Shown here one piece after another: positions 50,336 through 57,149 of a stretch of 64,000 nt of DNA. The number at the start of each line of letters is the position of its first letter. Position 1 is the stretch's first letter. The notes under the pieces were generated by a model. The model made no database searches. It was not told the origin of the DNA and saw nothing but the letters and a program-made list of their open reading frames with translations. The translations under genes and the position numbers were made by a program. The stretch is from Actinomycetota bacterium (GTDB taxonomy: Bacteria; Actinomycetota; Actinomycetes; Nanopelagicales; Nanopelagicaceae). The stretch is from assembly GCA_026392935.1 (NCBI GenBank), contig JAPLBE010000011.1, forward strand, positions 124,001-188,000, in the 5' to 3' direction.

Positions 50336-51124
50336 ATGAGTACCGGTCGTGTTTTAGAACTGCGCGATGTCACCGTTCGACGTGGACAGAGAAATATTCT
50401 CGGACCTATCAATCTCGCGATTTCCGCTGGTGAACGTTGGGTTGTTCTAGGCCCTAATGGCGCTGGCAAATCGACTCTTTTACAAATTCTTTCAACTCGC
50501 CTTTTTCCGACCGGCGGAAAAGTTTTTCTTCTCGATGAAGAGATGGGCAAAGTTGATGTGTGGGAACTTCGCACTCGAATAGGTATATGCGGTGCTCTTG
50601 TCTCAGAAGAAATTCCTTATGAGGAGAAAGTTCGTGATGTCGTACTCACGGCTGCATATGCAATATTGGGGAGATGGAATGAAGCATACGATTTATGGGA
50701 TGAGTCTCGAGCGGTAGCTCTCCTTACTACCTTTGGTGTCAGAAACCTAGCTGATCGTGAGTACGGGACTCTGTCTGAGGGTGAGAGAAAGCGGGTGCAA
50801 ATCTCACGAGCACTTATGGCAGATCCTGAACTATTACTTCTCGATGAACCTGCTGCAGGTTTAGATCTTGGAGGTCGCGAAGATTTGTTGAAGAGATTCT
50901 CTGTTTTCGCAGCAGACCCACATGCACCAGCGTCAATTCTGGTGACACATCACATTGAAGAGATCCCTGCTGGAACAACGCATGCATTGATTCTAAAAGA
51001 TGGACTAGCTGCGGTTTCTGGACCAATCAGAGAAGTCATAACTAGTGAGCATATGTCTAATATCTTTGAGCTTCCAATGGAGGTTTCACATGACGGCTCG
51101 AGATTCTTTGCCCGTGCACTCTAG
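50336..51124 (+). CDS. ABC transporter ATP-binding protein (ModF/YlmA-like, stand-alone)
   Basis: LGPNGAGKSTLL Walker A; LSEGERKRVQISRALMADPELLLLDEPAAGLD; ORF track begins TTG 50327. Confidence 0.9.
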   Translation: MSTGRVLELRDVTVRRGQRNILGPINLAISAGERWVVLGPNGAGKSTLLQILSTRLFPTGGKVFLLDEEMGKVDVWELRTRIGICGALVSEEIPYEEKVRDVVLTAAYAILGRWNEAYDLWDESRAVALLTTFGVRNLADREYGTLSEGERKRVQISRALMADPELLLLDEPAAGLDLGGREDLLKRFSVFAADPHAPASILVTHHIEEIPAGTTHALILKDGLAAVSGPIREVITSEHMSNIFELPMEVSHDGSRFFARAL

Positions 51125-51737
51125 TTGGGGTCCAGTACTTGCACCGCACAGGAGTCTGATTGACTCCATACTTGCCACAATTGAAGATCAGGAAATAACA
51201 CCGGGAGTAGACCAGATTTTTTCCAGCCTCGAATTAGATGTAGCACAAGTAAAGTGCATCATCATTGGTCAAGATCCCTATCCAACAAGAGGAACTGCGC
51301 ATGGTCTTGCCTTCTCGGTACCTAAGGAAGTGCAGAAAATTCCCGCTTCGCTTGCGAATATATTTTCAGAACTAGAAAGTGATATTGGATTAGAGAGACC
51401 GACGCATGGAGATTTAAGTTCGTGGATGTCAGAAGGAGTTCTCTTGTTGAATCGAGTGCTCACGACGCGCATTGGTGAAAGTGATGCGCATAAAGGCCTG
51501 GGCTGGCAGACTGTTACGGAAGCAATAGCTGAAGAAGCTGCCAAACGAGATGCAATTGCAATTCTTTGGGGGAGACAGGCTCAAGGGCTGCGAGATCTAT
51601 TCCCGTTAAGGGTTGAATCTGCACACCCCAGCCCCCTCAGTGCATACCGAGGATTTTTTGGGAGCAAACCTTTTAGTCAAGTTAATTCGATGCTCAGAGC
51701 CACCAACCGATCAGAAATCAATTGGTCATTGAAGTAA
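51090..51737 (+). CDS. ung: Uracil-DNA glycosylase
   Basis: CIIIGQDPYPTRGTAHGLAFSV; VESAHPSPLSAYRGFFGSKPFSQVN; ATG 51090. Confidence 0.96.
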   Translation: MTARDSLPVHSSWGPVLAPHRSLIDSILATIEDQEITPGVDQIFSSLELDVAQVKCIIIGQDPYPTRGTAHGLAFSVPKEVQKIPASLANIFSELESDIGLERPTHGDLSSWMSEGVLLLNRVLTTRIGESDAHKGLGWQTVTEAIAEEAAKRDAIAILWGRQAQGLRDLFPLRVESAHPSPLSAYRGFFGSKPFSQVNSMLRATNRSEINWSLK

Positions 51738-51798: not shown

Positions 51799-53235
51799 TT
51801 AACCAACCCAGTTATTAATTGGTGATGACAAGAAGTAGATCATGAAAAGACCGGATACAAGTAGAAGCAGAGGATGTACTTCCTTGCGACGACCTTGCAT
51901 CACTCGAATTACTACATGTGAGACAAATCCGGCGCCGATACCTACTGAGATGTTGTAAGTAAATGGCATCAAAATGATTGTCAAGAAGGCGGGAATCGCA
52001 ATTCCGTAATCTTCCCAATCAATTGCCTTGATTTGAGTCATCATGAGGAATCCAACAATTACCAGCGCTGGAGTTGCTGCTTCGTAGGGAATGATTGCAA
52101 CAAGCGGCGCAAGGAACGTTGTCAACAAGAAACAAACTCCCGTTACTACGGACGCAAGACCCGTACGTGCGCCTTCACCAACTCCTGCCGCTGATTCAAT
52201 GTAGCTGGTGTTAGAAGAGATGCTTCCAGCACCGCCTGCAGCAGCTGCGATTGAGTCGACAAGAAGAATTCGATCGTTGTTTGGAATGTTTCCATCTTTA
52301 TCAATCAAACCTGCTTCGTGACCAATTGCGGTGACTGTACCCACGGTGTCAAAGAAGTCAGATAAGAGCAAAGTGAAAACAAGCAGAATCACTGTGATGA
52401 GAGGAATGCGATCAAGTGAACCAAAGAGATTGAACTGACCAAACAATCCAAAATCAGGAGTTGCTACAACGGCATCAGGCATCGCAGGGACGTTAAGTCC
52501 CCAACCTTTCGGATTTACCTTCCCTGTTGCTCCATCAAAATTTGGTCCAATCTTGAAAGATGTTTCGATGACTACTGCGACAACCGTAGCTGCGACTATT
52601 CCTATAAGAATCGCACCTTTAACCTTCTTAACCATTAGTCCGATAGTTAGGAAGAGACCAAGCGCGAAGACGATGATTGGCCAGCCTACGAGAGTTCCGC
52701 CATCACCAAGAGTTACAGGTACTGGACCAGAACCAGTGCGGCGCACAAAGCCGGCATCAACTAGGCCGATAAGTGCAATGAAAAGACCAATACCAACAGA
52801 GATCGCAACTTTAAGTTGGGCAGGTACAGCCTTAAACACAGCGGTTCGGAAACCAGTAAGGACCAGAACTGTGATGATCAAACCTTCTAGAACGACAAGT
52901 CCCATAGCATCGGCCCATGTCATCTGCGATGCGATGCCTACGGCTACGAATGTATTTAGTCCCAGACCTGTAGCAAGTGCCATCGGATACTTACCGATAA
53001 CACCCATAAGGATTGTCAGTACACCGGCCATGAGAGCGGTCATTGCGGCAACTAGAGCGAGATTAGGTGCGTCTCCGCCTCCGATGTACTTGCCGTCTGC
53101 ATCTTTAGCCAGACCAATAATTAGCGGATTGAGTGCGACGATATAAGCCATGGTGAAAAATGTTACGAGACCACCACGAACTTCGCGGCCGACCGTGGAA
53201 CCACGTTCTGATATTTTGAAATAGCTATCTAACAT
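51799..53235 (-). CDS. NCS2 family permease (AzgA-like purine transporter)
   Basis: YFKISERGSTVGREVRGGLVTFFTMAYIVALNPLIIG; ATGLGLNTFVAVGI. Confidence 0.93.
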   Translation of the reverse strand: MLDSYFKISERGSTVGREVRGGLVTFFTMAYIVALNPLIIGLAKDADGKYIGGGDAPNLALVAAMTALMAGVLTILMGVIGKYPMALATGLGLNTFVAVGIASQMTWADAMGLVVLEGLIITVLVLTGFRTAVFKAVPAQLKVAISVGIGLFIALIGLVDAGFVRRTGSGPVPVTLGDGGTLVGWPIIVFALGLFLTIGLMVKKVKGAILIGIVAATVVAVVIETSFKIGPNFDGATGKVNPKGWGLNVPAMPDAVVATPDFGLFGQFNLFGSLDRIPLITVILLVFTLLLSDFFDTVGTVTAIGHEAGLIDKDGNIPNNDRILLVDSIAAAAGGAGSISSNTSYIESAAGVGEGARTGLASVVTGVCFLLTTFLAPLVAIIPYEAATPALVIVGFLMMTQIKAIDWEDYGIAIPAFLTIILMPFTYNISVGIGAGFVSHVVIRVMQGRRKEVHPLLLLVSGLFMIYFLSSPINNWVG

Positions 53236-53312
53236 GACGAACCTTCCTGATTTTGGTAACGGGGGTGTTTGCGACCCCGTGTGAAGTGACGGCTCACATA
53301 CCGGGGGAAGGT
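53236..53312 (-). promoter_or_regulatory. Structured 5' leader of NCS2 permease; riboswitch-like candidate
   Basis: 5' ACCTTCC (53312-53306) perfectly complementary to SD region GGAAGGT (53247-53241); internal hairpin ACGGGG/CCCCGT; predicted -10 TAGTCT at 53324-53319 puts TSS near 53312. Confidence 0.55.
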
Positions 53313-53338
53313 GTTGTAAGACTAGTTCAGCGAAATAT

Positions 53339-56520: not shown

Positions 56521-57057
56521 TTAGTGTGACATGAGCGAGTGAACCGGAAGCGAAGGAGAGTGCTGCTTTATTTTCCCCCGTCCTCCGAGGCTCGAAATTT
56601 CCATGAGAACAGATACGGCGCAAACACTTGCTCCAACATCCGAGAGTAGATCTAGCGCCGCTTCGATGGTTCCGCCTGTGGCTAACACATCATCAATAAG
56701 TAGAACTCGCGAACCTGTGACAAGCGCATCTCTATGAATCTGCAACTCGTCAGTTCCGTATTCAAGTCCGTAGGTGCGAGTAAATGTTGCGTGTGGGAGT
56801 TTTCCTTTTTTACGAATAGGTACGAATCCCACGTTTTTTCGTTGTGCAATCGCACTGGCTAAAATAAACCCACGAGCTTCGATTCCCGCAACAAAATCAT
56901 AGGAATCTGATACTTGCGAGAGTTCCTCGATCACTCTCTGAAATGACTCAGCATGAGATAAGAGCGGAGTAATATCCTGAAATAGAATTCCTGGAAGCGG
57001 GTAATCAGGTATCGCACGTATCCGCGATAACGCTTCTGAGATTTCCATTGTCACCAC
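56521..57057 (-). CDS. apt: Adenine phosphoribosyltransferase
   Basis: IRAIPDYPLPGILFQDITPLL; VAGIEARGFILASAIA; VLLIDDVLATGGTIEAAL. Confidence 0.96.
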   Translation of the reverse strand: MVTMEISEALSRIRAIPDYPLPGILFQDITPLLSHAESFQRVIEELSQVSDSYDFVAGIEARGFILASAIAQRKNVGFVPIRKKGKLPHATFTRTYGLEYGTDELQIHRDALVTGSRVLLIDDVLATGGTIEAALDLLSDVGASVCAVSVLMEISSLGGRGKIKQHSPSLPVHSLMSH

Positions 57058-57065
57058 CGTACCTG

Positions 57066-57149
57066 TGTCCGAACGGGGACTTGAACCCCGAATCCCTTGC
57101 GAGAACTAGCACCTCAAGCTAGCGCGTCTGCCAATTCCGCCACCCGGAC
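57066..57149 (-). tRNA. tRNA-Leu (anticodon GAG)
   Basis: GTCCGGGTGGCGGAATTGGCAGACGCGCTAGCTTGAGGTGCTAGTTCTCGCAAGGGATTCGGGGTTCAAGTCCCCGTTCGGACA; type II variable arm; CCA not encoded. Confidence 0.95.

Follow-up and report, generated by a model that had tools for sequence, protein, structure and literature searches.

Organisation of the locus

The window analysed here, the whole stretch of 64,000 nucleotides, comes from a genome of 1.35 Mb. Among named bacteria, its closest relatives are Candidatus Planktophila and further acI Actinobacteria, a group that ranks with the most abundant bacteria of fresh water. The ATG at 53235 of the minus strand opens a gene (51799–53235) for a 478-aa AzgA-like NCS2 permease (PF00860), as the first-pass annotation had proposed; the nearest solved structures are those of Arabidopsis AZG1 and AZG2. 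A strong terminator-like stem of 18 pairs (51780–51740, minus strand) directly follows the gene and suggests a single-gene transcript. This stem sits between the permease gene and a convergent gene (51045–51737), a uracil-DNA glycosylase by sequence. An apt-like adenine phosphoribosyltransferase gene (56521–57057) and a tRNA gene (57066–57149) are found near the permease gene and share no operon with it.

Directly 5′ of the permease gene lies a leader of 77 nt (53312–53236, minus strand; all coordinates of its parts refer to this strand). The complementarity between its ends and the promoter element had already been placed correctly: ACCUUCC (53312–53306) is the complement of GGAAGGU (53247–53241), and a −10-like box, TAGTCT (53324–53319), stands six nucleotides before 53312, a spacing that would put the 5′ end of the transcript close to the anti-Shine-Dalgarno (anti-SD) tract. 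This tract, CCUUCC (53311–53306), is conserved in the alignment and complements the Shine-Dalgarno sequence (SD) GGAAGG (53247–53242), with the ATG 6 nt further downstream. Enclosed between the two are an upstream pseudoknot, formed by helix b (CGGU 53303–53300 with GCCG 53293–53290) and helix c (UGUGA 53298–53294 with UCACA 53284–53280), a hairpin with stem P1 (C1–G5, 53279–53275, with C16–G20, 53264–53260) and loop UCGCAAACAC (53274–53265), and an A-rich tail, UUACCAAAAUCA (53259–53248). Minimum-free-energy folding gave −21.9 kcal/mol for the leader, which is unremarkable (z = −1.0); the case for it therefore rests on comparison.

Conservation and distribution of the leader

By DNA search the leader was present in 54 of 100 relatives; counted by genus this was 1 of 36, the window's own genus only. 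A covariance model (R1) built from an alignment of 62 distinct leaders (A1) reached further: of the family's 251 genomes it matched 213, from 12 of 17 genera, mostly at one copy per genome. A second model (R2), restricted to the core hairpin, matched in 39 of 396 genomes sampled across the class; all 39 belong to the acI/Planktophila-type family and none of the class genomes outside it gave a match. The azgA homologues of other actinobacterial genera, the proteins of which are 65–70% identical, do not have the leader. Among viral contigs a single distant AzgA relative turned up, with 59% identity in a match of partial length.

When pairs were counted on A1 with the pseudoknotted model, 92% of cells were paired and 62 showed changes on both sides. 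None of 500 shuffles equalled this pairing and covariation, and shifting the partner strand by one to three columns reduced the paired fraction to 60% or less. Conservation and covariation of the leader are far beyond chance, and the leader is a real element, lineage-specific to acI/Planktophila-type freshwater Actinobacteria. The first-pass annotation had staked its view of a structured, riboswitch-like leader with an SD-sequestering layout on the conservation of homologous leaders, and covariance analysis found these to be conserved and covarying.

The upstream pseudoknot

The stem UGUGA/UCACA had been recognised previously, and it is real and covaries, with both-sided changes at all five pairs in A1. 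It is, however, only one half of an H-type pseudoknot, the other half of which, CGGU/GCCG, had been missed. The complete pseudoknot, in which the loop pairs as UGUGA/UCACA, could be parsed in 135 of 140 distinct leaders, with 35 distinct strand pairs for b/b′ and 36 for c/c′; a parser score of at least 20 was obtained for 96% of the real and 9% of the shuffled leaders. Three of the five parser failures (L088, L196 and L199, from genera g44 and g40 and a relative) have the pyrimidine tract right against the hairpin, which indicates that some relatives can do without the upstream knot. The pseudoknot lies between the anti-SD tract and P1, directly stacked on the latter. None of its unpaired bases is conserved and not all relatives possess it, so its role is probably to stiffen the fold or to position the anti-SD strand.

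It had also been proposed that the G-rich strand ACGGGG (53280–53275) alternates between an upstream CCCCG and the downstream CCCCGU (53264–53259) as a bistable switch. Both complements are present in the window's sequence and the downstream pairing is conserved. The upstream complement, in contrast, occurs in just 25 of the 140 leaders and in 2 of the 21 in which the G-rich strand has changed, while the downstream partner always compensates. We regard a switch between two C-rich strands as very improbable.

Similarity of the downstream hairpin to preQ1-I riboswitches

No Rfam family reached its gathering threshold in the leader. A permissive scan ranked preQ1 (RF00522) first, at 53284–53241 with 18.4 bits (E 0.094 for 161 bases), and matches to RF00522 were obtained at the corresponding position of 9 out of 15 other loci and of 7 out of 10 further ones, the best of the latter with 33.6 bits (E 0.0022). 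These scores, from 18.4 to 33.6 bits, all fall below the gathering score of 39 bits, which is a curated recall threshold and not a mechanistic feature. Rfam scans gave no match to a purine riboswitch, in keeping with the earlier remark that a classical purine aptamer was not recognisable; this three-way junction fold shares with the leader the regulation of purine permeases.

The preQ1-I type II aptamer of Thermoanaerobacter tengcongensis (Tte; sequence from PMC10639078) aligns without gaps over 34 nt of the leader, with 26 of 34 positions identical. The next-best Tte match on either strand of the 64-kb window has 21 identities, and shuffled windows gave 21 at most. P1 is 100% paired with 21 compensatory cells, a count reached in none of 500 shuffles. 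In a broader set of leaders (A2), the closing pair G5–C16 is G–C in 57 of 57 and the other four P1 pairs vary with compensation. U6 is invariant in the aligned leaders, as is the AC that precedes the 3′ strand of P1 (A14 and C15, each in 56 of 56). According to a review of the family, an AC at this place, a G5–C16 floor and C as specificity base are the signature of type II (PMC11625349). The A-rich tail corresponds to L3 of the preQ1-I aptamer; in A2 its A23, A26, A27 and A28 are invariant in sequence, and A29 is found in 49 of 56.

The loop reads GUCGCA...CACC over 10 nt, its 5′ part resembling Tte and its ACACC part the Bacillus subtilis (Bsu) aptamer, in which C13 is likewise followed by ACC. 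Position 9 is C in 44 leaders, A in 9 and U in 3 (12 of 56 with A or U). Relative to Tte, compensatory pair changes were found in P1 (U2–A19 to G2–C19) and in P2 (G11–C30 to A11–U30). The Tte P2 pairs are not kept as such: A11 is invariant and position 30 is U in 44, C in 9 and A in 3, giving mostly A11–U30 and sometimes A11 opposite C30. Since P2 thus differs from that of Tte, membership in preQ1-I is probable and not certain. In two leaders before azgA (L197 and L076) a variant aptamer, GAGUUUGCAGACACUCUC, was found, in which a U–U replaces the G5–C16 floor and U7 stands for C7; either it has decayed or its ligand has changed.

With the type II aptamers of RF00522 (Tte, Bsu) the leader shares the 5-bp P1, the G5–C16 floor, the A before C15, the 10-nt loop, the A-rich tail with the SD at its end and a transporter gene downstream. 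It differs from them in scoring below the cut-off, in having A11–U30 or A11/C30 for G11–C30, in the added upstream H-type pseudoknot and anti-SD tract, in the absence of detected preQ1 synthesis from its family and in controlling NCS2/NCS1 permeases rather than queT, QPTR or queCDEF. Types I (Carnobacterium) and III (E. coli) have in common with it an H-type aptamer with full or partial SD occlusion, and A–U pairs in the ceiling as in A11–U30 (PMC11625349); their loop sequences and their UC (type I) or UU (types I and III) signatures are not found in the leader. PreQ1-II and preQ1-III riboswitches have the same ligand group and more than one knot but a different pocket and an HLout architecture, and neither gave a sequence match in the Rfam scans.

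The first-pass annotation had suggested a different class of riboswitch, and a small hairpin followed by an A-rich tail might have come to resemble preQ1-I by convergence. Such a class would agree with the sub-threshold scores wherever Rfam was tested, with the different P2 and with the restriction to one family. It is nevertheless unlikely in view of the gapless match that includes all pocket residues and of the repeated RF00522 matches at the same place in independent loci, the best with an E of 0.002. Even less probable is a structured translational leader that is bound by a protein or responds to translation and has no small ligand: the upstream pseudoknot does resemble a plain structural one, yet the loop is invariant and aptamer-like, the homology is to preQ1-I, and neither coding potential nor a binding protein was identified for the leader. 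Judged by sequence comparison, the 3′ half of the leader (53279–53242) is likely a divergent preQ1-I type II aptamer, and the leader that contains it a riboswitch that turns off translation of a nucleobase-type importer. It would be a divergent preQ1-I variant that Rfam does not call, with an added pseudoknot.

Proposed mode of action

In about three quarters of the 140 distinct leaders a TAnnnT −10-like box starts 12–16 nt 5′ of the pyrimidine tract (108 box counts at these offsets), and transcription is expected to start near 53312. A ligand presenting a guanine face would pair with C15, the pocket being made up of the G5–C16 floor, U6 and A14–C15. Upon binding, the A-rich tail would dock on P1 and the first SD bases would be pulled into P2, after which the 5′ CUUCC tract could cover the remaining GGAAGG. 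Helix c ends on P1 and may hold the anti-SD tract in place. The SD would be free when no ligand is bound, and as the ligand would hide the SD, the importer would be made only when the base is scarce.

The weakest step is the pairing of the anti-SD tract, for which partner-specific covariation with the SD was not significant (140 distinct leaders, 200 permutations). The duplex energy of tract and SD was −5.19 for real and −5.00 for permuted partners, and 17 of 200 permutations were as good. This step is therefore only inferred. An aptamer-stacked pseudoknot combined with a 5′ anti-SD strand is an architecture not described in the reviewed preQ1 family.

The permeases encoded behind the leader

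At about 90 loci the gene behind the leader could be read. At nearly all of them it is azgA, and at the remainder it encodes an NCS1 permease (PF02133), which is unrelated to NCS2. The NCS1 arrangement was found at 13 loci in 12 genomes of genera g43 and g39 (L184, L201–L203, L205, L209, L211–L213, L217, L220, L222 and L223), at 11 of which the permease gene is divergent from a yeast-type cytosine deaminase gene. At a further locus (L218) the leader and azgA occupy the same deaminase-flanking site. azgA was absent from the three NCS1 genomes checked (G132, G252 and G142), so that the leader was kept while the importer behind it was exchanged for the other. Such an exchange suggests that the NCS2 AzgA and NCS1 importers carry the same or a similar substrate. 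The motif-less genera checked (g41, g42, g47 and g50) are also without azgA.

AzgA proteins encoded behind the leader differ from other actinobacterial AzgA at three near-fixed internal residues. Thr95 (window positions 52953–52951), next to the conserved Asn94, is near-fixed in the proteins behind the leader, where 23 other actinobacterial AzgA mostly have Ala. The difference at Thr95 may reflect lineage history or an altered substrate.

No paper linking preQ1 riboswitches to NCS2 or purine permeases was found in the literature searched. A review of queuosine-precursor transport finds the transporters missing in many Actinomycetota (PMC11130926). The leader now points to NCS2-AzgA and NCS1 permeases as candidate queuosine-precursor transporters, for which E. 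coli complementation assays are already available.

Queuosine genes and the likely ligand

QueA, QueC and QPTR were each absent from 37 of 37 genomes of the window's genus, QueC giving only weak matches to frames of about 520 aa that resemble GMP synthase. It is therefore probable that cells of this genus are unable to make preQ1 and would have to obtain a 7-deazaguanine by salvage, as has been predicted for most Actinomycetota (PMC11130926). The leader represents a natural case of a preQ1-I pocket in such cells. Given the apparent lack of preQ1 synthesis, the base that it detects is probably an imported one (queuine, preQ1 or guanine), in response to which the importer would be turned off. 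The best reading is that of a candidate translational riboswitch controlling nucleobase permeases in cells without detected preQ1 synthesis. A purine-related ligand had been the natural guess from the start, and it still is, the candidates being a 7-deazaguanine or guanine.

The conserved pocket residues argue for a 7-deazaguanine. Queuine is considered alongside preQ1 because the cells cannot modify preQ1 further, and it is sterically conceivable, since the Tte pocket was considered able to take bulky substituents on the preQ1 aminomethyl group (PMC12122380). With less than even confidence, we suggest that a preQ1-I descendant became a sensor of queuine (or guanine). Such a sensor would be either the first riboswitch found in nature to respond to queuine or a guanine switch derived from preQ1-I, and would control NCS2/NCS1 permeases as new queuosine-precursor importers through a novel stacked-pseudoknot expression platform.

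It is also quite conceivable that the same fold binds plain guanine (or hypoxanthine or xanthine), the preQ1-I aptamer having been re-used to control the uptake of nucleobases in general. Purines and cytosine are substrates common to NCS2 AzgA and NCS1 permeases, and both permeases would be throttled when guanine is plentiful. The controlled genes are general nucleobase permeases and not queuosine genes, the NCS1 copy usually adjoins the cytosine deaminase gene, and AzgA is nearly unchanged relative to its unregulated homologues; permeases of such ordinary purine/cytosine type, with so little change, favour guanine over a queuosine precursor. In genera that keep QPTR and tgt adjacent, neither gene carries the motif, which points the same way, and preQ1-I pockets do bind guanine, though most weakly (PMC11625349). 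Against guanine, all residues that contact preQ1 in type II are invariant, including G5, whose O6 holds the 7-aminomethyl group, while the remaining P1 positions drift. In other riboswitch classes a change of ligand usually alters the contact residues, and here these are unaltered. In addition, the bacteria possess Tgt and depend on salvage of a 7-deazaguanine, and the same-genus genomes are without QPTR. As far as can be judged from sequence, a 7-deazaguanine (preQ1 or queuine) is slightly favoured over plain guanine, the two being nearly equal.

Tgt is present in the window's genome and in 231 of the 251 family genomes; being nearly universal, it is uninformative as a discriminator. There are genera with tgt in which both azgA and the motif are missing, which counts against the reading given here. 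The pocket motif of Tgt was likewise rejected as a predictor. The Tgt at L141 (1435–2691) has GGALDKD and not GGLAVGE, and this acI motif fits neither GGLAVG nor GG[LS][AS]G; because it is unlike the published motifs, the Tgt substrate (preQ1 or queuine) cannot be predicted from it. QPTR as a mutually exclusive alternative to azgA was also discarded, as QPTR and the motif occur together in five genera and are both missing from g41 and g42. The window's genus has either lost QPTR or never had it. In five acI-family genera (L284–L303; g44–g48, g52) QPTR (PF02592) lies convergent to tgt, a few dozen bases apart.
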